Shown here: positions 7,448 to 64,000 of the stretch, piece by piece
Layout: every line of letters starts with the position of its first letter
Numbering within the stretch: the first letter of the stretch is position 1
Assembly: GCF_019633745.1 (NCBI RefSeq)
Contig: NZ_CP037968.1
Location: forward strand, 2,114,789-2,178,788
DNA length: 64,000 nt
Source of the DNA: Methanofollis formosanus
GTDB taxonomy: Archaea; Halobacteriota; Methanomicrobia; Methanomicrobiales; Methanofollaceae
Direction: 5' to 3'
Notes under the pieces: generated by a model
The model's input: only the letters and a program-made list of their open reading frames with translations
What the model was told of the DNA's origin: nothing
Database searches by the model: none
Program-made: the position numbers and the translations under genes

Positions 7448-7461
7448 CATGTCGAATTCTC

Positions 7462-7755: not shown

Positions 7756-7799
7756 ATCATCACCTTGTCGGTTCCGGGTTTTAGGTTTTCCCGGTGGTG

Positions 7800-8150: not shown

Positions 8151-8164
8151 GAGGGGTGGAAAGG

Positions 8165-40575: not shown

Positions 40576-40588
40576 CCATGCCCCCTCC

Positions 40589-41200
40589 TTACAGCTCGGT
40601 CTCGAAGTCCTCGGGAGTAAGGGAGGTGGAAACACCGCGGATCCTGAGCATCTCCTTGGTGAGCAGGTAGTAGATGAGCGAGAGTGCCTTTCTCCCTTTG
40701 TTGTTCGTCGGGATGACCAGATCGAGGTACTTCGTCATGTTGTTGGTGTCGCAGAGCCCGACAACCGGAAGCCCGTTCTGGATTGCTTCCTTGACAGCCT
40801 GGACATCGCCCATCGGGTCGGTGACCACGACGACGTCGGGCTCGATGTAGCCCCTGAAGTTCGGGTTGGTCAGGGTTCCCGGGATGTACCGGCCGATGGC
40901 CGACGTCCCGCCGATGCTCTCGGCGAACTTCCGCGCCGGGTACTGGGCGTACTGTCTCGAGGCCACGACCAGGATCTTCGGGGCGTCGTACTGCGAAAGG
41001 AACTTTGCTGCGGTCTTGATCCTCTCGTCGGTCGACCTGATGTCAAGGATATACAGTCCATCCCCGCGCACGCGGTAGATGAACTTCTTCATGTCCTGGC
41101 TCTTCTGCTGCGTGCCGATGTGGACGCCCGCGGCGAGGTAGTCTTCCACCGGCGCGAGGGGCTCGTCCAGCACGATCTCCATCTCATTTGCTTCAGCCAT
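40589..41200 (-). CDS. rpsB: 30S ribosomal protein uS2
   Basis: 203 residues. Contains [20 protein letters not shown]-like [25 protein letters not shown] and [10 protein letters not shown], all archaeal uS2 signatures. It starts 2 bases after the enolase stop in the ribosomal-isoprenoid operon. Confidence 0.97.
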
Positions 41201-41202
41201 AT

Positions 41203-42390
41203 TTAGATCAGCTCCTCAATGCGTAACAGTTCATTCAGTTTTGCTATCCGCTCGCCGCCTACGACCCCGCACTTGAGGAAGATACACTCGAACGCGGTGG
41301 CGAGATGGGCGATGGTCTCGTCAGTTGTTTCACCTGAGCGGTGGCTCATCACCGTCTCCATACCATGGGTATGGGCGAGGTGCACCGCTTCGTACGTGTC
41401 GGTCAGGGTCCCGATCTGGTTGGGTTTGATGAGCACACAGTTGGACGCCTCGGTCTCGATGCCTCTGGTGATCCGCTCGGTGTTGGTGACATAGAGGTCG
41501 TCGCCACAGATGAGGCACCGGTCCCCGACCTGGCTGGTGAGCTCGGCAAAGCCCTCGAAGTCCTCCTCCTGGAGGGGGTCTTCGACATAGACCAGGTTGT
41601 ACCGGTCGACCAGGTCGGCAATATAGGCTATCTGGTCTTCCGTCGACCGCTTTGCGTCCTTGTATGTGTAGGTCTCGCCGTCCCAGAGTTCCGAGGCCGC
41701 AACATCGACACCCATGCTGATCGCAAAGTTCAGTTCGTCGGAGACCGCACCCACGGCTTCCTGAAGCAGTTCGAATGCCTCGATGTCCTGGATCCTGGGT
41801 GCCCATGCCCCTTCGTCGCCCTTGCCGCAGCCCTTGCCGGCTGCGACCAGGAGCTCTTTCACCTTCTTGTGCACCGCGGCATTGGCGAAGACCGCCTCGT
41901 CCGCACAGGACGCACCGGTCGGTACGATCAGGAACTCCTGGATGTCGGTGGCATTGGCCGCGTGTGCCCCGCCGCCGATGACATTGCCCAGGGGCAGGGG
42001 TGTCTTCTGGGCGAAGGCCCCGCCGAGGTACCTGAAGAGGTCGGCCCCGATTGCATCTGCTGCAGCCTTGGCAGAGGCCAGGGAGAGTGCAACCGCGACG
42101 TTCGCACCGATGTTCGAGAAGTCGGGCGTCCCGTCGATCTCATGGAGAATGGCGTCGAAGCCCGCCTGATCGGCGGCGTCTCTGCCGACGAGTTCGGGCA
42201 GGAGGTGCTCGCGTGCTGCTGCGATCGCCTCGCGGGGCGGCCGCACCTTTGCTTCCCAGGTGCCGGTCGACGCCCCGCTCGGCGCTGCCGCCCGGCCAAA
42301 ACCAAACGCAGTGTAGATCTCCGCCTCAACGGTCGGGTTGCCCCGACTGTCCTGGATCGTCCTCAGTACAATTTTCTCAATCTCAGTCAT
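41203..42390 (-). CDS. eno: Enolase
   Basis: This enzyme interconverts 2-phosphoglycerate and PEP. The 395-residue protein has [22 protein letters not shown], the metal ligands in [10 protein letters not shown] and CGDDLYVTN, and [17 protein letters not shown] near the end. At 395 residues it is slightly shorter than typical enolase. It starts 4 bases after rpoK. With ppsA and ppcA it is the third PEP-node enzyme in the window. Confidence 0.97.
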
Positions 42391-42394
42391 CAGA

Positions 42395-42565
42395 TCACGC
42401 CTTTCTCTTTACGGTAATAGGGATCCGATCGTTCTCGAATTCTTCGAGTGCGATGCTGAGGGGATCGACACTGGTGGTTTGAATCAGGACTGGGGCACCC
42501 ATGGAGACCTGGAGCGCTCGTGCTCCAATAATCCGTGCTTTTTCATAGCGAGTATATGGGTCCAT
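42395..42565 (-). CDS. rpoK: RNA polymerase subunit K (Rpo6)
   Basis: This 56-residue archaeal homologue of Rpb6/omega reads [20 protein letters not shown], then SMGAPVLIQ, with a C-terminal IPITVKRKA. These match the conserved fold that latches the polymerase beta-prime-like subunit. A GAGGGTGA site lies just upstream; ATG 42568 is an alternative start one codon earlier. It lies between tRNA-Pro and eno. Confidence 0.94.
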
Positions 42566-42594
42566 CATTCACCCTCAAAACTCATAATAGATAA

Positions 42595-42669
42595 TGGGGT
42601 CGCTGAGATTCGAACTCAGGTCACAGCGTCCCGAACGCCATAGGATAGTCCAGGCTACCCCACGACCCC
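42595..42669 (-). tRNA. tRNA-Pro (CGG)
   Basis: On the minus strand the acceptor arms GGGGTCG and CGACCCC pair. The anticodon loop TTCGGGA gives anticodon CGG. The T arm contains AGTTCGAAT. Discriminator A, no encoded CCA. It is embedded in the ribosomal operon directly after rpoN. Confidence 0.94.
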
Positions 42670-42858
42670 TCACTGGTACGGATTGATGTCCTCCACAATC
42701 TCTTTGTGAGTGAGCAGCATCCGTCTGCAGCAGTACCGCTTCAAACCGAGATCATCGAGGATCTCTTTGGGATCCTCGCCTGCCTCCCGTCGCTGTTTGA
42801 ATTCTTCCCATGCGGGGGAGATCACCTTGCCGCATGTTACGCAACGTACCGGGATCAT
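42670..42858 (-). CDS. rpoN: RNA polymerase subunit N (Rpo10)
   Basis: This 62-residue zinc-binding subunit opens [20 protein letters not shown]. The two cysteine pairs CVTC and CCRR ([11 protein letters not shown]) define Rpb10/RpoN. The gene ends where tRNA-Pro begins. ATG 42858 is chosen; an upstream in-frame extension is not part of the family. Confidence 0.96.
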
Positions 42859-42889
42859 ATCTCGATTACCTCCATTTCTTTTGTCCAGC

Positions 42890-43291
42890 TTAACGATAAG
42901 ACTTTTGGAACTTTGCCCGTGCTCCACGACCGTGCGGCTTCTTTGCTTCCTTCTGGCGTGAATCGTTGACCAGGAGGGTGCGGTCGTAGGTGACGAAGAT
43001 GTCTTTGATCTTCGGGTCGTTGTGCCACTTGACGATGCCGCGGGCGAGTGCGGTCCTGACTGCCTCGGCCTGGCCCATGAACCCGCCGCCGTTGACTTCG
43101 ATCGTCACGTCGATGTCCTCGATTGCGTTCGGTGCGAGGAAGAGAGGCTCGGAGATCTTCATGCGGGCCAGTTCGGTCCCGTAGATCTCGAGGGGCACGG
43201 CGTTGATCCGAACCCGGCCCTTTCCTTCCTTGAGGGTTGCCCGTGCGATCGCGGTCTTCCTTTTTCCACTCGTGTTAATGACCTTTACCAT
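42890..43291 (-). CDS. rpsI: 30S ribosomal protein uS9
   Basis: 133 residues. N-terminal [19 protein letters not shown], central [21 protein letters not shown] and the basic [17 protein letters not shown] tail that reaches the P-site tRNA. Standard place between rplM and rpoN. Confidence 0.97.
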
Positions 43292-43303
43292 CTCTCCATC
43301 ACC

Positions 43304-43726
43304 TCAGAACTTGGAACCAAGGATCTTGCTGATCTCGCCGAGCGTGACATACTTCGGGTTGTTCAGCCGCTCGATCCCTGCGGTCTCGATGGTCTCGAAT
43401 TCCTTGCCCTGGAACTGGGCCGGCACGCCGGTGTAGACCATGATATTCTTCAGGGCATCGGCGCCGCGCTGGCGCTTGTACGGGAGCATGCCGCGAATGG
43501 TCCGCTTCATAATGAGGTCGGGACGCCGCGGGAAGAACGGGCCGCCTTCGACTGAGCCGCGCTGGTGCTTCTGCTCGTAGTTGGCCAGCACCATGGCACG
43601 CTTGCCTGAGACGATCGCCTTCTCGGCGTTCACGATCACGAACTCTTCGCCCTGAAGTGAGCGCTTTGCGACGTTGCTCGCAAGTCGTCCGAGCAGGTTT
43701 CCTTCTGCGTCGATAATCGTCACCAT
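43304..43726 (-). CDS. rplM: 50S ribosomal protein uL13
   Basis: 140 residues. Contains [31 protein letters not shown] and [20 protein letters not shown] 43726 has GAGGTGA six bases upstream. An in-frame GTG at 43735 falls within that site and is not used. Confidence 0.97.
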
Positions 43727-43731
43727 TGCTC

Positions 43732-44100
43732 TCACCTCAGAATCCTCACGCCAGAGCCCTTCGGGTTTGCCTGGATCAGTTCTTCGATGGTCATGCAGCT
43801 GCCGTCAAGGCCGGTGATCTTGCTGACCGCCGACTCGGAGAAGGTCAGCGCTGCGACCGATACTTTCTGGTTGAGCACGCCGCTCCCGAGCACCTTGCCG
43901 GGCACCAGGATCGTCTCGCCGTCCTGGGCGTACCGATTGATCTTTCCGATGTTCACCTCAGCGTAGTTTCTGCTGGGTGACTCCAGATTTTGTGCGATGG
44001 CCCGCCAGACCTTCGCGTCGTTCTCGCGCGCGGTATCTTTGAGCGTCGCGATGAGGTGCGTCAGGCGCGGGTTCGTCTTCTGGTTAGTCCTCTTTGCCAT
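43732..44100 (-). CDS. rpl18e: 50S ribosomal protein eL18
   Basis: 122 residues. Opens [20 protein letters not shown] and contains [10 protein letters not shown] and [11 protein letters not shown], as in archaeal L18e. It begins directly after the rpoD stop. Confidence 0.96.
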
Positions 44101-44925
44101 CTAATTCACTCCGGCTATCTCACTCAATGTATCTGAGAGATCCGTCGACTGATTCCTGATGAATTCCAGTCCTTTTTCGATTATTGTCAGAACAGGTATG
44201 GACCCGTCGCTTTCCACGACAAAGATGAACCGTGAGCTGTCTGCGGTGACCGTGACTGCGGGCTCTTCGCCGATGCCGGTGGTCAGGCAGGCTTTCTCGC
44301 AGAGTCTGCAGAGCGAGCACTCCTCAAGTTTGCCTTCGACCACGCCCATCGTCCGGCCCTTCAGTTCGAGTACCCCGCGTGGGCACTCGTCGATGCACAT
44401 GCCGCACCCGTCGCAGTTCTCAGAGACGGTGATGACCGGGTACTCTTTGTACCCGCAGGCATTGGTCGGCTGCCACTTGGCGTGGTGCTTCCCGATGCCC
44501 AGGACGGCGCGAGCCTCAAGGACGACCTTCTGCCCCTCGAAGAGTTTGACGATGGGGATGTCATCATGGACCAGTTTGGTGTCCGGGTCGTCTGAGATGA
44601 GGTCGCTGGAGAGGACGGTCCTGGGTCCCTCGACGCTCATGGTGAAGTTCACCATGCAGAGGGGGCACCCTTCGCCGCCGCAGGAACATTCGCTCTGGAG
44701 AACAAAACGGGACAGGTCAGTCTTTATCGGGATTAATCCGAGCCTGTGTGCCAGAATCTCATCGAAGAGTACGCTGGAGTTATCATAGATCCTGATATCT
44801 TCGATGGCGAGCGTCGGCACCTCACCGATCATGGCACGGCGCAGGGCATTGGCGAACGCTGGGGTGGCGTCGCTCAACACAAAGCGAGCGGCGTCATCAT
44901 CAATTCTGGCAAATTCGATCTGCAT
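44101..44925 (-). CDS. rpoD: RNA polymerase subunit D (Rpo3) with iron-sulfur domain
   Basis: This 274-residue assembly-platform subunit corresponds to bacterial alpha and Rpb3. The N-terminal dimerisation part has NALRRAMIGEVPTLAIEDI. An insert holds two complete 4Fe-4S motifs, CDGCGMCIDECP and CSLCRLCEKAC, as in methanogen subunits. An extra CSCGGEGCPLC lies near residue 80. The start overlaps the rpsK stop by one base. Confidence 0.96.
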   Translation of the reverse strand: MQIEFARIDDDAARFVLSDATPAFANALRRAMIGEVPTLAIEDIRIYDNSSVLFDEILAHRLGLIPIKTDLSRFVLQSECSCGGEGCPLCMVNFTMSVEGPRTVLSSDLISDDPDTKLVHDDIPIVKLFEGQKVVLEARAVLGIGKHHAKWQPTNACGYKEYPVITVSENCDGCGMCIDECPRGVLELKGRTMGVVEGKLEECSLCRLCEKACLTTGIGEEPAVTVTADSSRFIFVVESDGSIPVLTIIEKGLEFIRNQSTDLSDTLSEIAGVN

Positions 44926-45320
44926 CAGACTCTCCTTCCGCGTCTCCCACCCTTTTGACGGATCGAATCGTGCGGGACCGGGGTTACGTCCTCGATCTTA
45001 CCGATACGCATGCCTGCACGGGCAAGTGCTCTGATGGCTGCCTGGGCGCCTGGCCCGGGGCTGCGCTGCTTGCCCTGGCCCGGAGCGCGGACTTTCACAT
45101 GGAGCCCGATGATGCCCTTTTCCTTCATGGTGTTGGCAACGTTGTTGGCCATCTGCATTGCCGCATAGGGCGAGCTCTCGTTGCGGTCCTGCTTGACGAC
45201 CATCCCACCGCTGCTCTTGGTGATGGTCTCCGCACCGGAGAGGTCGGTGACCGTGATGATGGTGTTGTTGAACGAGGCGAAGATGTGTGCGACACCCCAT
45301 TTTTCCTTCTCGTTTGCCAT
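44925..45320 (-). CDS. rpsK: 30S ribosomal protein uS11
   Basis: 131 residues. [29 protein letters not shown] and the C-terminal [15 protein letters not shown] are archaeal uS11 landmarks. Follows rpsD after 2 bases. Confidence 0.97.
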
Positions 45321-45322
45321 GA

Positions 45323-45862
45323 TTACCTCCCGCTGATCCTGGAGCGCTCAGCGTGCGACTCGGTGGCGAGCGGAGAGTGCCCGTAATATTCGACCTGGCC
45401 TTCCTGTTCCCTGGGAACCATGTAGCCGGGGATGGTGACCTTGCGACCGCCGATGGCGATGTGGCCGTGAGTGATGAACTGGCGGGCTTGTTTGGGTGAA
45501 CGGGCGAGCCCCTTCCTGTAGACGATGGTCTGCAGTCGGCGCTCGAGTTCCTGCTCGGTCTTGAGGGCGAGGACGTCGTCGATGTCGGCCTCGCTGCCGA
45601 CCATGCCGTAGCGCTCGAGACGGTTGAGGAGCTGCTGCTTCTTGGTCTCGGCCCGTGCGGGGTCGGTGCCCGCGGATTCGAGGGCGAGGATTTCACGAGT
45701 GGCCTTGCGGTACTTGCGCAGGGCGCTCTGGGCCTTCCAGAGTTCCTTCTTGTTCCTGAGGCCGTACTCGATGACGATCTTCACTTCCTCCTCGATGCGG
45801 GTCTTCTCGAACCGGCGCTTCGGGGTGGAGTAGGTCTTATGATTCTTGCCTGGATATCCCAT
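45323..45862 (-). CDS. rpsD: 30S ribosomal protein uS4
   Basis: 179 residues. N-terminal [20 protein letters not shown] and the S4 RNA-binding segment [20 protein letters not shown] identify the archaeal protein, which nucleates small-subunit assembly. Confidence 0.97.
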
Positions 45863-45878
45863 CTTTCTGCCTCCTCAC

Positions 45879-46331
45879 TCAGGCCTTCTTTCTTCTCACA
45901 CCGACGGTCGTGCCAGTCCTGCCGGTGGACTTGGTGCGCTGGCCGCGGACCTTCTGGCCGGTCTCGTGGCGGATCCCGCGGTAACTGCGGACCTTGCGCA
46001 TCGTGTTGATGTCCTCTTCCAGGGTGAGCGAAACTTCGCTGGCCATGAGGTGCCTGGGCTTGCCGGAAAGGACGTCGATGGGACGGTTCAGCATCCAGGT
46101 AGGGACGCTTGACGTGTAGTTGTCAACTGCGGTACGGATCCGTTCGATCTCGTCGTCACCCATCTTGCCGAGGATCGCACGCGGGTTGATCTCGGCCTGC
46201 TGCGTGATGATCTTTGCAGCGTGCCGCCCGATCCCTTTGATCCCGGTGAGGGCGATGAGCGCCATCTTCGTGCCGTCCAGGTCGGTGTCTCTGACCCGGA
46301 CGAAGTACTTGATTTCTTCTTCTTGATCCAT
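45879..46331 (-). CDS. rpsM: 30S ribosomal protein uS13
   Basis: 150 residues. Contains [33 protein letters not shown] and the basic [20 protein letters not shown] tail. First protein gene of the operon, after tRNA-Ser. Confidence 0.97.
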
Positions 46332-46359
46332 CTGATCGCCTCGTCAGATCTGGTCAAAG

Positions 46360-46444
46360 CGCTGAGGGAGGGATTTGAACCCTCGAGTCCCAGGGGGACA
46401 CAGGTTTAGCAAACCTGCGCCATACCAGGCTTGGCTACCTCAAC
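46360..46444 (-). tRNA. tRNA-Ser (GCT)
   Basis: 85 bases with a long variable arm. Acceptor GTTGAGG pairs with CCTCAGC. Anticodon loop TTGCTAA gives GCT, closed by CAGGT/ACCTG. T arm GGTTCAAAT. Discriminator G, normal for serine. Heads the ribosomal operon on the minus strand. Confidence 0.96.
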
Positions 46445-46540
46445 ATTCGAATTGCGCATCCTTGGATACTCGCAACGCAGAGCGCTGCTCCATGAATGGT
46501 GTTCAGTAGTATTCGTTTGAATTCTTAATAATGGTTGTGG

Positions 46541-47515
46541 TTAGCCCTGGCCCGGGCGGGCCCGTACAAGCCCGCTCCCGAGGAGGGCCGATGTGACGAT
46601 CGGCAGGGCGATGGTGGCGTCGCAGAAGCACTGGACGCTTCTGGTCTCAGGAGACTCTTTTCCCCACGAGATCGCCTCTTCAAAGGTACACCCGGAGAGT
46701 CCGCCCCAGTGGGGGGCGTCGGAGGTGTACTGGACGGCATAAGCATGGCCGCCGAGTTCGTTGTCGTGCATCGAAGCGATCACCTGAGTCTGCTGGATGA
46801 AGTTCTTCGGGACGCCGCCGCCGACATAGACGACGCCGGTTTTTCGGGCGCCCTCGACGATCGCCGTCAGTTCGTCGGCGTCGGCGATCTGGTCGATCGC
46901 GACCTCCGCCCCCCGTCGGCGGGCGACGGTGAGGGCGATGCCGAGCGACGAGTCGCAGAGGGCCGGGACAAAGATCGGGACGCCGGCCTGCACAGCGGTG
47001 GCGGTGAACGACCTGCCGTCGGGTGCGAGATCGGTGATATGTCCGGCAAGGCGACGGATGAAATCTGCCGAGGAGGCGTGGTAGGGGGCGAGGCTCTCGG
47101 CGAAGGCGGCGACGCGGAAGTCCACGCTTCTGAATTCGGTCTCATACGCAAAGACGTCGTAGATCCGGTCGATCCCCTTGTCGTACAGGGCCGCGTCGTC
47201 GACGCAGTGGTGGCCCAGATAGTGATGGATACTGAGGTGCTCGGCGATGTCGTGGAAGATGTTTGCGCCGGTGGAGACGATGGCGTCGACGTATCGGTGG
47301 GCGATCAGTTCGATGAGACATTCCTGCATACCGGCCGGGACCATGGCCCCGGAGAGACCGAGGATGATGGTGCAGTCAGGGTCCTGGATCATCTCTGACC
47401 AGACTCTGGCCGATTCTCCCAGTTTCCTGCCCTGGAACCCGGTCATACTCATGGCGCGTACGAGTGATGGAACGTCGCTGTTCGGGCGGACCGGTTGGCG
47501 TGGGTTGAGTTCCAT
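46541..47515 (-). CDS. dys: Deoxyhypusine synthase
   Basis: This NAD-dependent enzyme moves the aminobutyl group of spermidine to a lysine of initiation factor aIF5A. The 324-residue protein has IILGLSGAMVPAGM, AIVSTGANIFHD and the catalytic lysine motif VVYVGGGVPKNFIQQ (Lys237). It is separate from the ribosomal operon by 96 bases containing AT-rich sequence. Confidence 0.94.
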   Translation of the reverse strand: MELNPRQPVRPNSDVPSLVRAMSMTGFQGRKLGESARVWSEMIQDPDCTIILGLSGAMVPAGMQECLIELIAHRYVDAIVSTGANIFHDIAEHLSIHHYLGHHCVDDAALYDKGIDRIYDVFAYETEFRSVDFRVAAFAESLAPYHASSADFIRRLAGHITDLAPDGRSFTATAVQAGVPIFVPALCDSSLGIALTVARRRGAEVAIDQIADADELTAIVEGARKTGVVYVGGGVPKNFIQQTQVIASMHDNELGGHAYAVQYTSDAPHWGGLSGCTFEEAISWGKESPETRSVQCFCDATIALPIVTSALLGSGLVRARPGQG

Positions 47516-47640
47516 GGCTCTTCTCCTGAAATATACTCGTAGGAAGAAGTGAAGAACACATTGATCTGTTCCTGGCGGGCGGGGCGTCAGGAGAGTACCT
47601 TATAGGGGTCGTGTCGGGTTTTTCTCTGACTGTTGTGGGG

Positions 47641-47966
47641 TTGGTTTTGTAGAATCACTCATGAAACGAAAGCACGCCTCAAACATACGGGATGAAAATT
47701 TCTCGTCGCTTGCGGTCTCATTTCAAGACCGAAGAATCGGTGGAGACCTCACTCAATTGCCGCCCCCGCATATCCTCGTCGTGGGGGGTTCCGGGGGGTT
47801 TCCCCCGGCGCGAGACGGCGGGGAAGATTCGACGATTGGGGGCGGCCGATATCTCTGAGGAAGTTTCTCTCCTCTGTGTATCGGCCTCAATGGGATTTGA
47901 TGGGTTCAAACTCTCATAAAAATCCGAAGAGATGATATTCAGGATCATTTTCATAGTGTCGAATAG
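47641..47966 (+). repeat. Composite GC-hairpin repeat, copy H (leader, type I and tail)
   Basis: Leader 47647-47720 (TTTTGTAGAATCACTCATG, CATACGGGATGAAAATTTC). Type I module 47759-47846 with 9-bp outer arms GCCGCCCCC/GGGGGCGGC and hairpin 47791-47808. Tail 47847-47966 matching copy G. It fills the gap between dys and the Rhs island; 47967-48030 has no feature I recognise. Confidence 0.82.
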
Positions 47967-48030
47967 GGAGAGCAAGTTGCCTGACCCTCCCCTTCTAAGA
48001 ACCGTACGTGAATCTTTCTAAAGAATTAAT

Positions 48031-49379
48031 TTTTTTAGTTCCTCTTCATTGAATCCGTTCGATAAACCAATCACTTTCCGCCGTTTGCAATGTGTTCCAG
48101 GGTGCTATCAACGCCTATTCCCAGGCCGTTATTAATTATGTTTCCGAAAAGACGTCGTTGCATTTCTTTCTGCATTTGTCTTCCGGTCAGTGCCGTGATT
48201 AAGGATTTTGGATTTCTTCCCACGTTTGGAGAAAATATTTTCTTTCCCACTCCTCCTGAAATCGCGCCACCTCCGGTAGAAACTGCAAGACCTTCCCAGG
48301 AGAATTCTTCCGTACTTCCTGGAACTCCTATTGAAGAAAGCTTGTTTTGTGTATAAGTATCAACACCATACTCAACTGCTCCCCATGCAGCACCAACAGC
48401 AACGGGGTTTAATGATCCCGCTGCGAGTGCAGCCGCCGATCCCCCGGCAAATCCTCCTGCTGTCCGACCTGCTAATGTGCACCAACTAAAAGTGTTTTCA
48501 CCTGTTGCCGCATAGGTCCCGATCACCTCTCCTATATACCATGCATCGTTAACAGCAGCGCCGGCAGCACCCGGGACCCACCAGACCACTTTCCCGCTCG
48601 GATCCGTAAACCGGACAGGATTATTGTGAACGTACGTGTACCTGTTCAGGCTCGGGGGGACGGAAGCAAACCCGGTGAAAGGATCCTTTGAAATAAACCG
48701 CCCGGTTTCCGGATCATAATACCGTGCCCTGAGATAGATCAGTCCGGTTTCAGGATCCATCTGTTCCCCGGTGAAAAGGAAGTCGTTATCCTCCTGACCG
48801 GTTATCAGATCCGGCTTGCCGAAGGCATCGTAAGAATACGTATTTACGGTGATTCCGCCACTGTCACTCAGGCTGCGTACGCTTCCCAGCCCGTCGTACT
48901 GGTAATAGATCTGTTCTCCCGACGAATTGGTCATGGAGATACGTTGCAGGCCATATAAGGAAAGAGATGTACCCTGTCCATTAGATTCGGTAAGAACCTG
49001 TGGCAGGCCGCCATTGACATCCCATACATACTGGTTACTTTCTGTTGTATTCCCGCTGGTTACGGATTTGCCGACACGGTTGCCATCTCCGTCATATGCA
49101 AAGGTAAGTGAGGTACTTCCCGGCAATGATACGCCGGTCAGTCTGCCGGCAGCATCATACCCATACGACGTTGTCCCATTGGCTTCATTCTTTTCAATAC
49201 GGTTGCCGTTGTTGTCATAGGTGTAGGTGGTCCCGCCGGCACTCAGCAACCGGTCACCTGCATCGTACGTGTAGGAAATTGTCGAGCTCGCGTTACCAGC
49301 ATTCGTGGCCATGTTCAGGCGGTTGCCCATGGGATCGTACGTGTAGGCCACCGTTGTACCCGGGTACGTCACCGTGTGC
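48031..49379 (-). repeat. Direct repeat R, downstream copy (Rhs 3' end)
   Basis: Aligns with 50138-51486 at a constant offset of 2107 bases with no net insertion or deletion. The duplicated block covers the end of the Rhs gene and about 40 bases after its stop. Scattered substitutions show the copies have diverged. Confidence 0.92.
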
Positions 49380-49405
49380 GAATGGCGGAAAAAAGGATAC
49401 GTCAT
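48071..49405 (-). CDS. Orphan Rhs/YD-repeat C-terminal fragment
   Basis: This 444-residue protein equals the last third of the neighbouring Rhs protein. It has YD repeats (TYTYDNNGNRIEKNE), the Rhs core FTGEQMDPETGLIYLRARYY, then the same Gly/Ala-rich C-terminal domain ending STLEHIANGGK. Homology starts at HTVTYPG; the first nine residues are new. Its ATG overlaps the stop of the membrane-protein gene by 4 bases, so it could be translated by coupling, but it lacks a signal peptide. It may be expressed or a recombination relic. Confidence 0.75.
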   Translation of the reverse strand: MTYPFFRHSHTVTYPGTTVAYTYDPMGNRLNMATNAGNASSTISYTYDAGDRLLSAGGTTYTYDNNGNRIEKNEANGTTSYGYDAAGRLTGVSLPGSTSLTFAYDGDGNRVGKSVTSGNTTESNQYVWDVNGGLPQVLTESNGQGTSLSLYGLQRISMTNSSGEQIYYQYDGLGSVRSLSDSGGITVNTYSYDAFGKPDLITGQEDNDFLFTGEQMDPETGLIYLRARYYDPETGRFISKDPFTGFASVPPSLNRYTYVHNNPVRFTDPSGKVVWWVPGAAGAAVNDAWYIGEVIGTYAATGENTFSWCTLAGRTAGGFAGGSAAALAAGSLNPVAVGAAWGAVEYGVDTYTQNKLSSIGVPGSTEEFSWEGLAVSTGGGAISGGVGKKIFSPNVGRNPKSLITALTGRQMQKEMQRRLFGNIINNGLGIGVDSTLEHIANGGK

Positions 49406-50106
49406 TCCAATTTTACCTTATCCCCCAGTTTTTCCCTGAACCGCAAATAGATCTTTGCGACTATGTCGCTATTATAAAACGTAAGGATATTTATCTTCTT
49501 TTTTCCATTCATAACTATCTCAAGCCTATATCTGCGGAATTCTTCACCTACTTTTCCTTTCGGAGCAGGTTTCACTGCTATGATATCCGTATATTTTATC
49601 ACGGTTTTCCAGTCAATACGAAAAAAGTAAAACAGAAATGATTTAATCTGCACTGAATCCTCTTTAAAGATGAAAACAGGCGTTATGTACCACATCAAGA
49701 TAAAAATTGTAATCACTACAAATGAGCAACTAGTATGATTGAAATCCACTTCATTTTTAATCAAGGAATAGATGATATCAAATGCAGGACTGAATGTAAA
49801 TATCATAAAAAATATTAATACTCCAATTGTTGGCTTGAAAAGCGATTGTCGGGTATCTTCCTGATCGGCCTCCTTGATCTCTTCTTCCTTCATCTCCTGT
49901 GCCAGTGATTTTTGATAGATTTGATAAATAATTGTTATAACAATATACGTTAAAATTCCCACGCCCGCAATACGTTGAAATAATCTGATTGTTTCAATAA
50001 GACCCGGGTCTTGTATGCCGATAACCGATGCCCAGGGAATAGCAAAAAGGACAAAAGCGCAGAGAATCAACAATACGTAACGTACGATTTCCTTTCTCTC
50101 CATCAT
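49402..50106 (-). CDS. AT-rich four-helix membrane protein between Rhs repeats
   Basis: This 234-residue protein has four hydrophobic segments: residues about 8-30 (LLILCAFVLFAIPWASVI), 44-62 (GVGILTYIVITIIYQIY), 92-112 and 124-146. It ends in a soluble domain of about 85 residues that resembles a bacterial PH-type beta fold. ATG 50106 has GAGGTG 9 bases upstream. Base composition is far more AT-rich than the neighbours, indicating transfer. Placement directly after rhs is where immunity genes usually lie, but I recognise no immunity family. Confidence 0.65.
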   Translation of the reverse strand: MMERKEIVRYVLLILCAFVLFAIPWASVIGIQDPGLIETIRLFQRIAGVGILTYIVITIIYQIYQKSLAQEMKEEEIKEADQEDTRQSLFKPTIGVLIFFMIFTFSPAFDIIYSLIKNEVDFNHTSCSFVVITIFILMWYITPVFIFKEDSVQIKSFLFYFFRIDWKTVIKYTDIIAVKPAPKGKVGEEFRRYRLEIVMNGKKKINILTFYNSDIVAKIYLRFREKLGDKVKLE

Positions 50107-50137
50107 CTTTGACAACACCTCATAAAAATTCTATTGA

Positions 50138-51486
50138 GTTTTTAGTCCCTCTTCATTGAATCCGTTCGATAACCCGATCACTTTCCACCGTTTGCAATGT
50201 GTTCCAGGGTGCTATCAACGCCTATTCCTAGGCCGGCATTAACGATGTTTCCAAAGCGACTTTTTTGTATTTCCTTCTGCATTTGTCTTCCGGTCAGTGC
50301 TGGGATTAAGGATTTTGGATTTCTTCCCACGTTTGGAGAAAATATTTTCTTTCCCACTCCTCCTGAAATCGCACCACCACCGGTAGAAACTGCAAGACCT
50401 TCCCAGGAGAATTCTTCCGTACTTCCTGGAACTCCTATTGAAGAAAGCTTGTTTTGTGTATAAGTATCAACACCATACTCAACTGCACCCCATGCAGCAC
50501 CAACAGCAACGGGGTTTAATGATCCCGCTGCGAGTGCAGCCGCCGATCCCCCGGCAAATCCACCCGCTGTACGACCTGCTAATGTGCACCAACTAAACGT
50601 GTTTTCACCAGTTGCTGCATAGGTTCCGATCACCCCCCCTATATACCATGCATCGTTAACAGCAGCGCCGGCAACACCCGGGACCCACCAGACCACTTTT
50701 CCGCTCGGATCCGTAAACCGGACAGGATTATTGTGAACGTACGTGTACCTGTTCAGGCTCGCGGGGACTGAAGCAAACCCGGTGAACGGATCCTTTGAAA
50801 TAAACCGCCCGGTTTCCGGATCATAATACCGTGCCCTGAGATAGATCAATCCGGTTTCAGGATCCATCTGTTCGCCGGTGAACAGGAAATCGTTATCCAC
50901 CGGATCGGTTGTAAGATCCGGTTCGCCAAAGGCATCGTACGAATACGAATTTACGGTGGATCCACTGCTGTCACTCAGATCGCGTACGCTTACCAGCCCA
51001 TCGTACTGATAATAGATCTGTCCTCCCGGAGGATCAGTCGTGGAGATCCGTTGCAGGCCATACAGGGAAAGAGATGTACCCTGTCCATCGGTTTCGGTAA
51101 GAACCTGTGGCAGGCCAGCGCTGACGTCCCATACATACTGGTTACTTTCTGTTGTATTCCCGCTGGTGACGGTTTTGCTGAGACGGTTGCCATCTCCGTC
51201 GTATGCAAAGGTAAGTGAGGTACTTCCCGGCACTGATACGCTGGCCAGTCTGCCGGCAGCATCATACCCATACGACGTTGTCCCATTGGCTTCATTCTTT
51301 TCAATACGGTTGCCGTTGTTGTCATAGGTGTAGGTGGTCCCGCCGGCACTCAGCAACCGGTCACCTGCATCGTACGTGTAGGAAATTGTCGAGCTCGCGT
51401 TACCGGCATTTGTGGCCATACTCAGGCGGTTGCCCATGGGATCGTACGTGTAGGTCACTGTTGTACCGGGGTACGTCACCGTGTGC
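50138..51486 (-). repeat. Direct repeat R, copy inside the full-length Rhs gene
   Basis: Partner of 48031-49379. The unique spacer between the two copies, 49380-50137, holds the membrane-protein gene and almost nothing else. Confidence 0.92.
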
Positions 51487-54400
51487 AGGCGGTTCAGTAC
51501 ATCATACTCGTATGCGGTAGTCAGGGATGAGTTGTCCGGCCCGGTTTCCGTGACCTGCAGGCGGTTCCCGACGGCATCCAGCGTATACGCGTACCCGGAG
51601 ACTACACTCGCTCCATCCTTATTGACCAGGTTAATCAAACGGTTGCCGTTATCATACGTGTATCCCGTCTCTCTCCCGTTGGGATACATCATGTTCACCA
51701 CATTGTCGTTCGCATCGTAACCATAACTGGTCGTGTTGCCGGTCCAGTCGGTCACGCCACTCAGCCTGTCAACGTTATCATATGCGTACGAAACCGTCCT
51801 GCCATCGGGATACGTCATCCCGATCCGGTTGCCGACAGGGTCATAGCCGTATTCCACAAGCTGACCGCCGGGACCGGTAACGCCTGTCAGCCGGTTGAGC
51901 TCGTCATATGCGTAACGCGTCGTCCCGGAACTGTCAGTCATCGCCAGCCGGTTCCCGACAGCGTCATAGGTATAACGAACCGTTGTCAGGTCGTGGTACG
52001 TTATTCCGGTGAGCCGGTTTAACGAATCATACGTGAGGTGGGTTGTGTCTCCATTATTGTCCGTGGAACTGATCGTATTGCCGGCTGCATCGTAGTTGTA
52101 ATTCGTGATATGTCCCAGGGGATCAGTAACGGCGGTCAGGCGGTGCACGGGATCATACGTGTATTGCGTGGTGTGGCCGTTCGCGTCGTTCATCGAAACG
52201 AGGTTATCCACGGAGTCATAGGTGTAACTCACCGTCCCGCTCAGGGGATCGGTGACTTCAGTGAGATGGTTGAGGGGATCATAGGTGTAACGTGTCGTGC
52301 TCCCCATGGCATCGGTAGAGCTGATCCGGTTCCCGACACCATCATAGCTAGAGGTCGCGCTATGGCCTAATGGATCGGTAATACTGAGAAGCCGGTCGAG
52401 TGCATCGTAACTGAACGAACTGGTCTTGCCTCTGGCATCGGTTGCACCAACCTGGCGCCCGACAAGATCATAGGAGAATGTTTCTGTATTCCCAACGGCA
52501 TCGGTGATGTCAATCGGATTGCCATAGGTGTCATAGGTATGGGTGGTACCATGCCCGTTGGCATCCTGGGCATTTATCACCTGTCCGTACTGGTCATACG
52601 TAAAAGTCGTAACAGATCCCAACGCATCGGTAATCTGAACGGGATTGTTGTTTGCGTCGTAGTCGAATGTTTCCTGGCGCCCCAATGCATCCGTGCTGCT
52701 CAGGAGGTTATTCTTTGAATCGTAGGTATGGGTGGAGCTGTGACCTGATGGATCGGTAACCTGGATGATGTTCCCGTTCGCATCATAGGAGGATGTAGTG
52801 GTATGGCCATTCGCATCGGTTGCGCTGATCCTGTTTCCGTTCCCGTCATATGCGTAAGAAATGATATTGCCCAGTGCATCAGTCTCATTGAGCTCCCAGA
52901 AGAGGTCGTTATAGGTGTACAGGGTACTCCTTCCTAACGGGTCGGTTTCGGTCGTTATCCGGTTCTTTGTATCATAACTGAACGTGGTTGCCGCATCCAG
53001 AGCATTGCTCTGGCTGACAACGCGCCCATTGCCATCATACGTATTGGTCACGATCTGGATTTCTCTGGGATTTGTTATTGAGGTCAGCCAGTGGTTCTCA
53101 TCGTACGTATAATCGAAATTTCCGCCATCAGGATTGGTATACCGGACCAGATTATCATCCGCATCATAGGTATACCTCAAAATCCTGCCTATGGGATCGG
53201 TGATTGAAATGATCCGTCCTGCTGCATCATAGGTGAAGGTCAGTTCTCTCCCGGAGGGATCTGTCACCTGAGTGAGATTATTGCCGGTATACGTAAGATT
53301 TATTTGATTCCCATTGGTATCCGCGATATTGATCAGCTGACCTGTCGGGGTAAAGAGATACGTTATGTGATCTTTTCGTTCAAGAGTGTAGGAACCATCT
53401 GCATTCCTGGTCAATATATCGAAGATTCCCGGGGGTGGAGAATAGGTGCCGTTGGAACTGGCATTATACACATCCGTGCGACTGTCTTCCCTGATCACCA
53501 GTATATCTTCACTGCCGTTGATTCCTGCCAGTTTCACGTTGTAATTAAATGTCCAACCGGAACCGAATGGCCCGCTCAGGGGATTCAGAGAATTGTAAGA
53601 ACGGGTAATTGCCAGGGGTAGTCCACGCCCCTCAATGAAGAGATCCTGATACTGGTAAACATAATTCCCGGTTGCGAGATTTACCGGCTCAAAGGAATAA
53701 GCGACATATGGGTTGGATCCTGGAGTGCCGGAAGTGCTCATATTCAGTAAACACGACTCAGTAAGATTTTCGAATATTGGTAATATTGACGATTGATTCT
53801 GCAGGTCGGCAATATACTCTTCCCAGGCGGAGTTACCTATAACATACGTATACGTCCCGGAAGATACCGTATTACCAATCTCGAACTTGCAGAAGTAACT
53901 ATACAAGCCAAAACCGTCATCATAAAGTTCAAGCGGAATAGATCGCCCACCAATAGGCAAACCATCGCCTATCAGATACTTGCCCTGAGGAGGTCCATTG
54001 GGATGACCGGCATCGATGAACCATCCACCGTTAAGTGAATAATGAGTCTCATCATACCACAGTTGACCTGTACCAGCAGCCGTAAACGCATCGTACCACG
54101 CCTGCAACTGCACAGAATTCTGATGAACAACAAAGGGATCCAGATCATACACCGCTACCAACCAATCAACAAACTCAGAATATGGCATAGAGTCACTGGT
54201 CTCCGAATACGCCGCCCACTCCACCATACTCTGACCACCCAGCCCTGAAGGACCGTACACCCAACCATCGTCAGTGAGATACGGGTTGATCCCAGAATCA
54301 ACGTTAACAGCCACCATAGAGTGTTGAACAGTAAACTTGTTGTAATAACCTGGAGCCGGGACAGTATAGTAAGTGGCGCCCTTATCAGGATCATAAATAA

Positions 54401-54551
54401 GACTCTCGTGGTCCCAAAAGGAAACAGCAGAAACAGGAGTAATCGCCAGAAGAAGTGCTATAAGAAGCGTTGTTGCAATTGTGGCGTAGTGATCGAGCAT
54501 AAGGGCCCGCGGGGCATCCTCCCCCCTGGCCCTATCTGACCCCTCAATCAT
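50178..54551 (-). CDS. Large secreted Rhs/YD-repeat protein
   Basis: About 1457 residues. A signal-peptide-like helix (HYATIATTLLIALLLAITPVS) lies near residues 20-42. A unique N-terminal domain is followed by a DUF6531-like segment (PVNLATGNYVYQYQDLFI, GLPLAITRSYNSL). About 35 YD repeats follow, then the Rhs core FTGEQMDPETGLIYLRARYY ending FTDPSGK. A Gly/Ala-rich C-terminal domain of about 170 residues completes it. Such shells normally encapsulate a C-terminal toxin; no catalytic motif is visible here. The start is uncertain: ATG 54551 has GTGAGG upstream and overlaps the previous gene, while ATG 54500 would give a more typical signal peptide. Confidence 0.85.
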   Translation of the reverse strand: MIEGSDRARGEDAPRALMLDHYATIATTLLIALLLAITPVSAVSFWDHESLIYDPDKGATYYTVPAPGYYNKFTVQHSMVAVNVDSGINPYLTDDGWVYGPSGLGGQSMVEWAAYSETSDSMPYSEFVDWLVAVYDLDPFVVHQNSVQLQAWYDAFTAAGTGQLWYDETHYSLNGGWFIDAGHPNGPPQGKYLIGDGLPIGGRSIPLELYDDGFGLYSYFCKFEIGNTVSSGTYTYVIGNSAWEEYIADLQNQSSILPIFENLTESCLLNMSTSGTPGSNPYVAYSFEPVNLATGNYVYQYQDLFIEGRGLPLAITRSYNSLNPLSGPFGSGWTFNYNVKLAGINGSEDILVIREDSRTDVYNASSNGTYSPPPGIFDILTRNADGSYTLERKDHITYLFTPTGQLINIADTNGNQINLTYTGNNLTQVTDPSGRELTFTYDAAGRIISITDPIGRILRYTYDADDNLVRYTNPDGGNFDYTYDENHWLTSITNPREIQIVTNTYDGNGRVVSQSNALDAATTFSYDTKNRITTETDPLGRSTLYTYNDLFWELNETDALGNIISYAYDGNGNRISATDANGHTTTSSYDANGNIIQVTDPSGHSSTHTYDSKNNLLSSTDALGRQETFDYDANNNPVQITDALGSVTTFTYDQYGQVINAQDANGHGTTHTYDTYGNPIDITDAVGNTETFSYDLVGRQVGATDARGKTSSFSYDALDRLLSITDPLGHSATSSYDGVGNRISSTDAMGSTTRYTYDPLNHLTEVTDPLSGTVSYTYDSVDNLVSMNDANGHTTQYTYDPVHRLTAVTDPLGHITNYNYDAAGNTISSTDNNGDTTHLTYDSLNRLTGITYHDLTTVRYTYDAVGNRLAMTDSSGTTRYAYDELNRLTGVTGPGGQLVEYGYDPVGNRIGMTYPDGRTVSYAYDNVDRLSGVTDWTGNTTSYGYDANDNVVNMMYPNGRETGYTYDNGNRLINLVNKDGASVVSGYAYTLDAVGNRLQVTETGPDNSSLTTAYEYDVLNRLHTVTYPGTTVTYTYDPMGNRLSMATNAGNASSTISYTYDAGDRLLSAGGTTYTYDNNGNRIEKNEANGTTSYGYDAAGRLASVSVPGSTSLTFAYDGDGNRLSKTVTSGNTTESNQYVWDVSAGLPQVLTETDGQGTSLSLYGLQRISTTDPPGGQIYYQYDGLVSVRDLSDSSGSTVNSYSYDAFGEPDLTTDPVDNDFLFTGEQMDPETGLIYLRARYYDPETGRFISKDPFTGFASVPASLNRYTYVHNNPVRFTDPSGKVVWWVPGVAGAAVNDAWYIGGVIGTYAATGENTFSWCTLAGRTAGGFAGGSAAALAAGSLNPVAVGAAWGAVEYGVDTYTQNKLSSIGVPGSTEEFSWEGLAVSTGGGAISGGVGKKIFSPNVGRNPKSLIPALTGRQMQKEIQKSRFGNIVNAGLGIGVDSTLEHIANGGK

Positions 54552-55071
54552 CGCCCTCACACTCCTCATCGTTCTGGTCACGCAGTATTGCAATCCTACG
54601 CTGCACCTTAGGCGATGCTAGGATCTCAGATGGCGATGCACGTTGTTGCCAGGTCAGTTTTCCCGTCGCCTTCTCGGTGGCGAGTGCACAGCGCGCCGGC
54701 AGCGATACAGGGCACCCCTCCTTCCCTATAATATCGGACGGGACCCGGAAATTCAAGGTGCTACCCATAATGGGATAAGGCCTGGTAGTAAGGGATATGA
54801 CCACATCAGTGGCATGTTTGAATTCATCGATCGAGTCCCCCGTTGGACGAGTCCCTCGAAGACGTATGTCGGTTGAAGGTATCGTTGTCTTCCTGAGATC
54901 GGCACTGAAAAGACGTTGGTGATTGCAACAAGGATACTCTTCACAGTTAGAAACGTGGGTTTCCTCCTGTAGATCATTATCGTAGGTCACGAACTGCCCG
55001 ATCTGCGGGCAGCTTCCTGCCGCTCCCGCTGGCAGGATGGGTGGCAGTGCCGGCAACATTGCTTTTTTCAT
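54544..55071 (-). CDS. Small exported protein upstream of rhs, unknown
   Basis: 175 residues. MKKAMLPALPPILPAGAAGSC resembles a short export signal with a cysteine, followed by two more cysteine-containing stretches (VSNCEEYPCCNHQRLF) and an acidic end (NDEECEGDD). A strong GGAGGAAG ribosome site lies 6 bases before ATG 55071, and its stop overlaps the rhs start, so the two genes form an operon. No family recognised; a chaperone or secretion helper for the Rhs protein is only a guess. Confidence 0.6.
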   Translation of the reverse strand: MKKAMLPALPPILPAGAAGSCPQIGQFVTYDNDLQEETHVSNCEEYPCCNHQRLFSADLRKTTIPSTDIRLRGTRPTGDSIDEFKHATDVVISLTTRPYPIMGSTLNFRVPSDIIGKEGCPVSLPARCALATEKATGKLTWQQRASPSEILASPKVQRRIAILRDQNDEECEGDD

Positions 55072-55114
55072 TATGTACTTCCTCCAATTTTTTGCTGATC
55101 TGGCATGCGAATCC

Positions 55115-55131
55115 GAACGGACTGTCCGTTC
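55115..55131 (-). promoter_or_regulatory. Perfect palindrome upstream of the Rhs operon
   Basis: GAACGGACTGTCCGTTC, two 8-base arms around one base, 44 bases before ATG 55071. It could be a repressor site or an mRNA hairpin. The AT-rich stretch at 55215-55250 upstream may hold the promoter. Confidence 0.5.
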
Positions 55132-55249
55132 TGGCATTATGGTGCGGGATAACTGTCTGGGGGCTGATAATCGCCTCCGGTGTATGATGCCGTGGCGGAC
55201 TCGTCAACAATTTGTTTTGTTATATCTCAAATTAATTTAATTTTACGAT

Positions 55250-55700
55250 CTGTGAAGGCGTCGCCTCACGACCGTTGGTGTAAAAGTGTCGTCCGCGACA
55301 TGACCGCTCATCCGGAACGGACCGCCCGACCCCCCTTTATAGCGAGCTCATCCCATAATTCACTGGACCATCATGGTGCATGCCGGGTGATCAGGCCAAA
55401 GAATGAGGACTCAGAGCGTTCATGCCCGGGAGAATCATCTTGAACGCCTCAATTCAGCGGGAGTAACCGTTCAACGGCATCGCCCATCTTGCGGAGTTCC
55501 GGATCAAATCAAAACGGCCGGTACGAGACCTCGCAGCCCGGGAACATCACTCCGGCGACGGGGTGGCGGCGCCCTCCGTTTCAAAATCAGCGTATTACCG
55601 AGTATCACTCTGAGTTCAAAGAGGTACGGAGTGTACGCATGGTTGATTTCCTTTTAACAGAATTGACGCCCTCCTCTTCATATGAGAGAAAGGTGTTTTC
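55250..55700. other. Intergenic stretch without recognised feature
   Basis: About 450 bases between the Rhs operon and the repeat cluster. I see no credible gene, tRNA or family repeat. It contains CGGAACGGACCGCC near 55315, which shares the GAACGGAC half-site of the palindrome at 55115. Confidence 0.4.
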
Positions 55701-55729
55701 TCAAAGGTGCATCATCGGAAAAAACAGTT

Positions 55730-55950
55730 TTTTGGGCTCTGTAGAATCGGGCATGAACCTTGGGCTCAAGTATATGGGATGAAAAATTTCTCGTCGCTTC
55801 ATCGCCGCCCCCCTATCCTCGTCGTGGGGGGTCCGGGGGCAGAGCCCCCGGCGCGAGACGGCAGGGAAGTTTCTGCAATTGAGGGCGGCACGTCTGATCA
55901 TCACGCCTTCTCACACCATACGCGCCGGATCTCCGGGACGATTTTCATGG
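55730..55950 (+). repeat. Composite GC-hairpin repeat, copy I1
   Basis: Starts with TTTTTTGGGCTCTGTAGAAT. Leader to 55795 (small hairpin region GAACCTTGGGCTC, then GGGATGAAAAATTTC). Type I module 55804-55889 with hairpin 55833-55851. Linker ACGTCTGATCATCACG and a decayed type II remnant (CCTTCTCACACC) follow. Confidence 0.82.
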
Positions 55951-55954
55951 TAAT

Positions 55955-56229
55955 TTTTCATGAACCCCAGGTTCAAGCATACGTGATGAAAATTTCTCGT
56001 CGCTTGATCGCTCTCTTTTCAAGACAGGAGAACCCGTGGAAACCTCACCCCATCGCCGCCCCCACCTATCTTCTGTCCGAGGGGGTCCGGGGGGCGCGGC
56101 CCCCCGGCGCGAGATGGCAGGGAAGATTCTATGATCGGGGCGGCACGTCGGATCATCACGCCTTCCCACATCTTCACGCCGGGGGCTCTGCCCCCGGAAC
56201 CCCCGGGATTGCGATTGGGCCGGGAAGGC
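55955..56229 (+). repeat. Composite GC-hairpin repeat, copy I2 (leader, type I, type II)
   Basis: Leader 55955-56035 with small hairpin TGAACC/GGTTCA and CATACGTGATGAAAATTTC. Type I module 56055-56144 with hairpin 56087-56107. 15-base linker CACGTCGGATCATCA. Complete type II module 56160-56229 with arms GCCTTCCC/GGGAAGGC and hairpin 56179-56197. This is the best complete example of the composite element. A partial tail (TCTCTGCGTATCG) follows to 56285. Confidence 0.85.
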
Positions 56230-56394
56230 AGAAGACAGAATCATTCAGAGGGTGTATTTCTTCTCTGCGTATCGTCCTTGAGGGATCCTGAAGAGGGTAA
56301 GTCATCATCCAGACGTGGAAAGCCGATCATCGGGATCATATTTCCATGAAAACCCCATTGAAATCAGAAATAGAATTCAATGTGTAGGTTTTCA

Positions 56395-56692
56395 TCGGTT
56401 CAGCATGGGGCTCTTGCCTCATGCATATGGGATGAAAATTTCCTGGTGGTCTCTGGTGGGTGGATTCTTGTTCCCTCTTCGGAGCATGAACCACATGGGA
56501 CCGCCACTTCATTGCCGCCCCTCGGCTATCCTCGTCGTGGGGGGTCCGGGGGGTGCAGCCCCCCGGCGCGAGATGACAGGAAAGATTCTGCAATTGGGGG
56601 CGGCACACCTGATCATTCCACCATGCCTTCCCAAACCTCGGTGCCGGGGCGCCGTCCCCGAAACCCCGGGATGAAGATTGAGGCGGGAAGGC
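56395..56692 (+). repeat. Composite GC-hairpin repeat, copy I3/I4
   Basis: Leader 56400-56445 (CATATGGGATGAAAATTTC). Type I module 56514-56604 with hairpin 56546-56566. Type II module 56625-56692 (arms GCCTTCCC/GGGAAGGC, hairpin near 56644-56660). Between leader and module I the usual connecting segment is replaced by unrelated sequence. Confidence 0.8.
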
Positions 56693-56790
56693 GGAAGAGA
56701 GTTCTGTCAGCCAGGTTGCTCTCCTGTGCCGACCTTTCGTTCTTGATGCCTCATAAAGTTACGAAAAAAAAGGGTACAATTATTGTTTTC

Positions 56791-57579
56791 TCAGAGCGCC
56801 CGGATCAGCGACGAACGAGTGACGACGCCGGCGACCCGGTTGTTCCCGTCGGAGATGACCACCGAACTGATCTTCTTCTTGAGCATCAGGTCGATGATCG
56901 CAGAGAGCGACTGCTCTGAGCCGACCGAGATGAGGGGTGCGGACATGATGTCGCGGACCAGGAGGTTCCGGATCCGGTGGTCCTGATATTTCCCCTCGAC
57001 GAGCTGACGGAAAGCCTGCATCGACCTGGCCACATCGGTCTCGGTGACGATCCCGATCGGGTCGCCGTTCTCGTCGGAGACGATGAACCTGGAGAGTCCC
57101 TCGTCCACCATCCGGCGGCGGAGATGGACGACCCGCTCCTCGGCGTTGATGGAGAAGACCGGTTCGGTCACCTCCTTGAGAGAAGTCGAGGGCTGGAGAA
57201 CCCGCAGGAGATCGCCGTAACTCACCTGGCCGATGAGTTTGTGGTCGCTATCGAAGACCACCACGATCTTTGCGTGCTGCAGGAGGGCGGGGAGGACTTC
57301 GATGCCCTGGTCCGGGTAGGCGGCAGTGTACTCGACTGAAACGGTGTTTGCGACGTGGATCTTGGTGGGTGAAATGTCGGAGTTCCGTTTCTTCCCGAGT
57401 TTGTCGGCGATCGCCTCCCGTGAGATGATGCCGATCACCGACCCGTTGTCGGTGACGATGAGGGGGTCGACATTCTCGTCCAGCATCTTTTCGAGAGCAT
57501 CGGTGATGGGTGCGGACTTGGCGATGGTGACTGGTTTGGTCATCACGTCCTTGATGTAGATGTACATGTCTTCGCTCAT
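56791..57579 (-). CDS. Four-CBS-domain protein (fifth in operon)
   Basis: 262 residues forming two Bateman modules. Repeats read KDVMTKPVTIAKSAPITDALEK, then three further units, each ending in a GIIS/GQVS/GIVT/GVVT strand such as DPIGIVTETDVARSM. CBS pairs usually bind adenosine nucleotides or SAM and act as sensors. No enzyme or membrane domain is attached. ATG overlaps the previous stop by 4 bases. Confidence 0.93.
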   Translation of the reverse strand: MSEDMYIYIKDVMTKPVTIAKSAPITDALEKMLDENVDPLIVTDNGSVIGIISREAIADKLGKKRNSDISPTKIHVANTVSVEYTAAYPDQGIEVLPALLQHAKIVVVFDSDHKLIGQVSYGDLLRVLQPSTSLKEVTEPVFSINAEERVVHLRRRMVDEGLSRFIVSDENGDPIGIVTETDVARSMQAFRQLVEGKYQDHRIRNLLVRDIMSAPLISVGSEQSLSAIIDLMLKKKISSVVISDGNNRVAGVVTRSSLIRAL

Positions 57580-63623: not shown

Positions 63624-63929
63624 GGGCTTTGTAGAATTGGGCATGAGGCGTCCTTTCGCCTCAAGAGCGATTACCATGAGCATATCCCAAATGTATCCGG
63701 GGCTCGATCGATCGAGAGATCGAGACTCTTCTCAGCCATTATTCCTCTGCCTTCCTCGCTTCAATCACAATCCCGGGGATTCCTGGGGCGCTGCCCCCAT
63801 TGTGATGAATGGAGGAAGGCATGATGATCGATCTGCCGCCCACAGAGAGATAAAGAGTGTTTCCTTGCTCTCTCGCGCCGGGGGGAGACCCGCCGGGTCC
63901 CCCCACGACGAAGATAGGGACGGGGCGGC
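63618..63929. repeat. Composite GC-hairpin repeat, copy J (leader, inverted II, inverted I)
   Basis: Plus-strand leader 63618-63665 with small hairpin GAGGCG/CGCCTC. Type II module 63749-63820 in opposite orientation with 9-bp arms GCCTTCCTC/GAGGAAGGC. Type I module 63835-63929, also inverted, with a decayed inner hairpin. Same order and similar sequence as copy C. Bases 63930-64000 show no further feature. Confidence 0.78.
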
Positions 63930-64000
63930 AGCAATCTCTTGAACGAAGCCGTACTTCAGAAAAATCTTCAGGTCACATAGCAAGGCCGGAGAGTTTTGGA

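Follow-up and report, generated by a model that had tools for sequence, protein, structure and literature searches.

A probable Rhs toxin/immunity locus with a dissociated tip in the archaeon Methanofollis formosanus

In the classic cases of tip displacement at rhs loci, the full-length gene keeps a tip of one type and the displaced tip belongs to another. The rhs genes of the Enterobacteriaceae have GC-poor regions behind them in which core and tip fragments are found, and both loop-out and the integration of circles through core homology have been proposed for these loci (Jackson et al. 2009, PMC2935791). In Salmonella Typhimurium, rhs-main and the orphan have 522 bp at 95% identity in common (Koskiniemi et al. 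2014, PMC3967940). Toxins that depolarise membranes and carry a glycine zipper are known from the TspA/TsaI and EsxX/ExiCD pairs, in which the immunity proteins are polytopic membrane proteins (PMC7456083, PMC12744356, PMC9484751). For archaea, the survey by Zhang et al. (2012, PMC3482391) describes polymorphic toxin loci of Methanosarcina acetivorans that have RHS repeats and contain toxin and immunity cassettes, and it calls classical polymorphic toxin loci rare in this domain.

The locus analysed here lies in a window, by which we mean the whole 64,000-nucleotide stretch of Methanofollis formosanus DNA that was analysed, from a genome that consists of one 2.97 Mb contig. Three genes on the minus strand follow one another in the order rhs-main, membrane-protein gene and truncated rhs (Table 1). 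A sequence-only reading of the window had described direct repeats of 1349 bases at a constant offset of 2107 without net indels, and this is borne out: in an ungapped comparison 1254 of the 1349 positions agree (93.0%), and BLAST returns the same pair as 1348 bp with 94 mismatches and 0 gaps (E=0). Identity between the copies drops sharply to chance level beyond both ends of the repeat, which reaches some 40 bases beyond the rhs stop codon and into the intergenic leader ahead of the membrane gene, and the comparison supports the earlier view of a duplicated rhs 3' end. Differences between the copies are clustered, with some 50-base blocks at 80% identity and others at 100%, so these are not clean duplicates of recent date. 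As had also been reported, the spacer (49380-50137) holds a single AT-rich gene; its extent was then given as 49402-50106, which corresponds to an ATG start, and reaches 50118 with the GTG start that we use. The GC contrast with the surroundings holds as well, since the membrane gene has 36% GC, rhs about 50% and the window 59%.

Table 1. Positions of the features of the M. formosanus rhs locus within the window.
Feature	Position	Strand	Basis
Species-specific island, flanked by the deoxyhypusine synthase gene and the CBS-domain gene cluster	47654..56765	.	homology break vs G001
5'-truncated group II intron end (half of domain V, domain VI)	47958..48018	-	similarity to full-length relative
Direct repeat copy 2	48031..49379	-	93.0% to copy 1, no indels
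Truncated downstream rhs (dissociated/orphan tip), 444 codons	48071..49405	-	ORF list, repeat comparison
Membrane-protein gene, presumed cognate immunity gene	49402..50118	-	hydropathy; alignment A1; 3' of homologous tips in G111/G158
Direct repeat copy 1 (3' end of rhs-main plus 40 bases)	50138..51486	-	same comparison
rhs-main tip, 181 aa from the VRFTDPSG motif, presumed toxin domain	50178..50723	-	alignment A2
rhs-main, full-length, 1471 codons	50178..54593	-	complete ORF; Pfam/NCBIfam domains

We consider it probable that we are dealing with an archaeal Rhs polymorphic toxin/immunity locus that was acquired horizontally and has one dissociated tip. We infer that rhs-main would encode a large, probably exported YD-repeat protein whose tip is probably a toxic, membrane-permeabilising glycine-zipper domain acting on competing cells, and that the gene directly behind it would confer immunity as the cognate membrane protein. 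The truncated rhs would then be an older or allelic tip. It may have been displaced downstream by a core-tip-immunity module that entered the rhs core through recombination, or it may be what remains after a module of this kind was duplicated in tandem. The immunity gene that went with it would have been lost, with an intron scar now in its place. The repeats may provide the homology for tip exchange, and a loop-out of the tip and gene that lie between them is possible too. Displacement and tandem duplication are both candidate routes to this arrangement, and displacement is not an established one.

The domain content of rhs-main is that of an Rhs polymorphic toxin: DUF6531, about 22 RHS/YD repeats and an Rhs-associated core domain stand ahead of the C-terminal tip (Pfam RHS_repeat 1.4e-141, DUF6531 1.9e-19; NCBIfam Rhs_assc_core 7.7e-25). 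By hydropathy, the N-terminus has a hydrophobic, signal-like segment at residues 33-51; the true start may lie further in, and a Met at residue 32 precedes the segment. An ORF of 197 codons upstream of rhs-main (54544-55137, minus strand) overlaps its first codons, has no Pfam match and may not be a real gene. In both rhs-main and the truncated copy the tip comprises 181 residues from VRFTDPSG on and is rich in Gly and Ala. A glycine zipper, GxxxGxxxG (G50, G54 and G58), is invariant in all four tips of alignment A2, a motif that is also frequent by chance in Gly/Ala-rich sequence. Tip hydropathy is moderate only, with a 19-residue maximum of 1.0-1.5, under the usual 1.6. Neither Pfam nor a PDB sequence search with the tip profile gave a match to the tip, no known toxin family matched it, and its structure model is uninformative (mean pLDDT 30). 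Within the core lineage of rhs-main there is one tip family in four copies, of which the one in G158 diverges over the last ~40 aa; other Rhs proteins of the order have tips quite unlike it, most of them with another small gene behind. One complete archaeal genome of this latter kind, G194, has ten Rhs cores within ~66 kb (C1:56726-123000), with differing tips among those read, in an apparent large polymorphic toxin array.

The presumed immunity protein has 238 aa from its GTG start (an alternative ATG start lies at 50106), with four hydrophobic segments by hydropathy and then a putative PH-like domain at the C-terminus; its structure model is middling (mean pLDDT 66) and the PH-like Foldseek matches are weak. 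Family searches gave nothing above a cut-off and no known immunity family. The nearest approach was DUF443 (PF04276), which reached 17.0 bits against a cut-off of 26.2 in one of six homologues. No relative was found on viral contigs. Across the five genomes that carry the family, GC content is 35-43%; AT-richness is thus a property of the gene family and not a mark of separate insertion, and we reject a recent insertion of an AT-rich gene since the family is AT-rich in every host.

Which gene belongs to which part of the locus is best seen from relatives. In a survey of 232 genomes of the order, the tip occurs in three and the membrane gene in five, and the tip genomes are nested within the five; the chance of all three falling there is about 5e-6. 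In each of the three, the membrane gene lies directly 3' of the rhs tip in the same order, and among the 232 there is no genome with the rhs tip that does not also have the membrane gene. The earlier suggestion of an accessory or immunity gene is strengthened by this linkage. A phylum-wide search yielded no convincing tip or partner outside the order. Two of the tip genomes, G111 and G158, belong to two other genera, and in both the membrane gene follows a single rhs tip with no second repeat, so we take the membrane gene to belong to the rhs tip and the second repeat to be the added part. In G111, rhs and the membrane gene align to the window as one block at ~85% DNA identity, with the tip and membrane gene the best conserved parts; the block ends just behind the membrane gene, where there is no second rhs end. 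A decayed second copy stands behind the G111 membrane gene.

The other two genomes, G112 and G159, have tandem membrane genes without rhs, the second gene being broken in G159. Such toxin-less tandem copies are what one would expect if these are immunity genes. In G112, a 44-base scrap of rhs core (E=6e-9) lies some 20 bases past the second membrane gene; it is the only strong rhs match in 19 kb, and the order of gene and then rhs fragment is that of M. formosanus. This second gene has no stop and runs on into the rhs core relic (contig JAFGKW010000045.1, L017 9874-9938). Gene linkage, the toxin-less tandem copies and the fit of the membrane topology together suggest that tip and partner may be a membrane-acting toxin and its membrane immunity protein.

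How the second tip came to lie downstream is less clear-cut. The two tips belong to the same family and are 95% identical in amino acid sequence, rather than being of different types, although the copy 2 tip differs in its last 35 residues; because they are of the same type, tandem duplication is nearly as likely as displacement. A simple duplication would have copied the rhs 3' end and the membrane gene once, with no incoming tip and with an illegitimate junction 22 bases behind the membrane-gene stop; the second membrane gene would have been lost later through intron insertion or deletion, and the locus would otherwise be the same toxin/immunity pair. The shared tip family, the uniform register without indels and the homology that runs 40 bases past the rhs stop into the membrane-gene leader are all consistent with it. 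The copies are 7% different, however, and their differences are clustered, each copy matching G111 in different blocks; moreover, another species has an rhs scrap behind the gene, which suggests that the process is a recurring one. On balance we regard a single tandem duplication as plausible, if somewhat doubtful.

The block pattern was examined post hoc: sites at which the copies differ are grouped according to the copy that G111 matches, with modest p-values (0.008 in a runs test, 0.011 for the longest block). The block-wise switching leans toward recombination between the tips. It is a speculative step further, and one that we think unlikely to be right, that the two near-identical tips are a true exchange pair, in which crossover or gene conversion yields tip variants or an altered tip/immunity state. 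If true, this would be a live archaeal counterpart of the orphan-Rhs recombination in evolved Salmonella, and the exchange would use a previously undescribed membrane toxin/immunity family.

The truncated rhs has the structure of a dissociated tip. It is an intact ORF that holds only the 3' third of rhs (the last repeats, the core domain and the tip), is 5'-truncated with its beginning inside the core, and stands behind an intact rhs. Its ATG overlaps the membrane-gene stop (ATGA). Comparison with rhs-main gives dN/dS of 0.24 (NG86) or 0.38 (YN00), and the truncated copy is, judging by this synonymous excess, either not freely decaying or held similar by gene conversion. A relaxed tblastn search behind copy 2 found no remnant of a second membrane gene. 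Where that gene would be expected, directly behind copy 2, lies instead a 61-base group II intron end, 94% identical to 391120-391183 of the same genome (G000). This relative has a full domain V and matches Rfam Intron_gpII at 60.3 bits (gathering 40), and related intron ends occur in 16 of the 232 genomes. The intron end in the window is itself too short for Rfam, and a search of 47000-57000 gave only a spurious microRNA match. It marks a rearrangement behind copy 2.

On a bleaker account, an old rhs locus with its pseudogene copy is decaying, no part of it is functional and the membrane gene is a passenger. Copy 2 has neither the rhs start region nor a signal peptide, and the intron scar and dispersed repeats around it are in keeping with decay. 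However, all three ORFs are intact, the synonymous excess between the copies runs the other way, and it is the tip and membrane gene that are best conserved relative to G111; we therefore think it improbable that the locus is a mere remnant.

The sister genomes lack the island. DNA homology with the closest sister, G001, breaks off after 47653 and is picked up again from 56766, and 376 bp separate these points in the sister; the 9.1 kb island is missing there as a whole and its flanking genes are adjacent. None of the eleven further genomes of the genus has rhs or the membrane gene; sisters with independent downstream Rhs genes, named earlier as an observation that would tell against a duplicated end, are accordingly not seen. 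The deoxyhypusine synthase gene adjoins the CBS-domain cluster in six of seven sisters examined. In the seventh, G011, the flanks are separated by ~3 kb of ORFs that by eye look transposase-like, of the IS200/IS605 and IS5 types (L077 10440-13525), and the site may therefore be prone to insertion, possibly a hotspot. The window also contains a dispersed intergenic repeat, GC-rich, partly hairpin-forming and in copies ~75-90% identical, at 7237-8323, 16013-16149, 29514-29635, 32743-32885, 47679-47900, 55801-56144, 56505-56604 and 63871-63930; copies flank the rhs island.

The sequence-only reading had instead proposed that the membrane gene is a cassette held between the repeats and that recombination between them makes a reversible gain/loss switch, excising the gene and leaving an intact rhs. 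The in-register 1349 bp at 93% would be enough for recombination, as Salmonella rhs recombines over 522 bp at 95% (PMC3967940), and since both copies are open and share one register, any crossover within the repeat would keep one reading frame; an open rhs would indeed remain, but one tip would go together with the gene, which was said to be all that is removed. As the primary account we reject the cassette as very unlikely: the gene is the regular neighbour of a single tip without repeats in G111 and G158, the comparison with sisters finds the locus absent but as an entire island and not as the membrane gene alone, and a neutral switch is improbable because excision would strip the tip of its only presumed partner, none of the 232 genomes is found in that second state, and there is neither a recombinase (none noticed by eye in the island ORF list) nor an inverted repeat of at least 30 bases in 40000-56000.

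We thus return to a toxin/immunity locus with one dissociated tip as the preferred reading. To our knowledge, contact- or secretion-based antagonism is poorly documented in archaea. The locus offers a concrete candidate toxin/immunity pair in methanogens, along with an orphan tip and, in relatives, presumed immunity genes that occur without the toxin, and with such a candidate pair competition between methanogens becomes directly testable. The mechanism itself is already known from bacteria.

Among described systems, the dissociated tips of the Enterobacteriaceae (PMC2935791) are alike in having a full-length rhs, an AT-rich small gene and a downstream core and tip fragment, with core homology that forms direct repeats permitting loop-out. 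Unlike those loci, that of M. formosanus has an archaeal host, tips of the same type and a downstream tip without a gene of its own. The Salmonella rhs-CT-orphan (PMC3967940) is likewise a fragment without export signal that has a near-identical core in common with rhs-main, and there too the immunity gene of rhs-main would be lost by a crossover. The orphan encodes another toxin and comes with an immunity gene for it, whereas the M. formosanus copy has neither. The orphan also has no translation start, in contrast to the ATG of the archaeal fragment.

For the presumed mode of action, Pseudomonas Tse5/Tsi5 (PMC9637101, PMC10684867) may be an analogue, with an Rhs protein whose C-terminus acts on membranes and an adjacent gene for an integral-membrane immunity protein; Tse5 is delivered by type VI secretion and has a PAAR-like domain, whereas the archaeal Rhs begins with a signal-like hydrophobic segment. 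By analogy with TspA/TsaI and EsxX/ExiCD of Staphylococcus, a glycine-zipper tip would face a polytopic membrane partner, and the Staphylococcus immunity genes likewise occur in tandem strings or without toxin (PMC7456083, PMC12744356, PMC9484751). TspA and EsxX are delivered by type VII secretion, and the one archaeal homologue that resembles DUF443 scores under the Pfam cut-off. Old partner genes behind a current effector-immunity pair recall the immunity arrays of Vibrio cholerae (Kirchberger et al. 2017, PMC5361080), whose proteins are unrelated and whose delivery is by type VI secretion. Neither this tip/partner family nor its occurrence in Methanomicrobiales is among the Methanosarcina acetivorans-type loci in the available portion of PMC3482391. 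Bacteria are well known to have such arrangements of toxin, immunity gene and leftover tip, for which there is little documentation from archaea, and what M. formosanus has is a known kind of locus, a candidate case of C-terminal displacement, in an unusual host.
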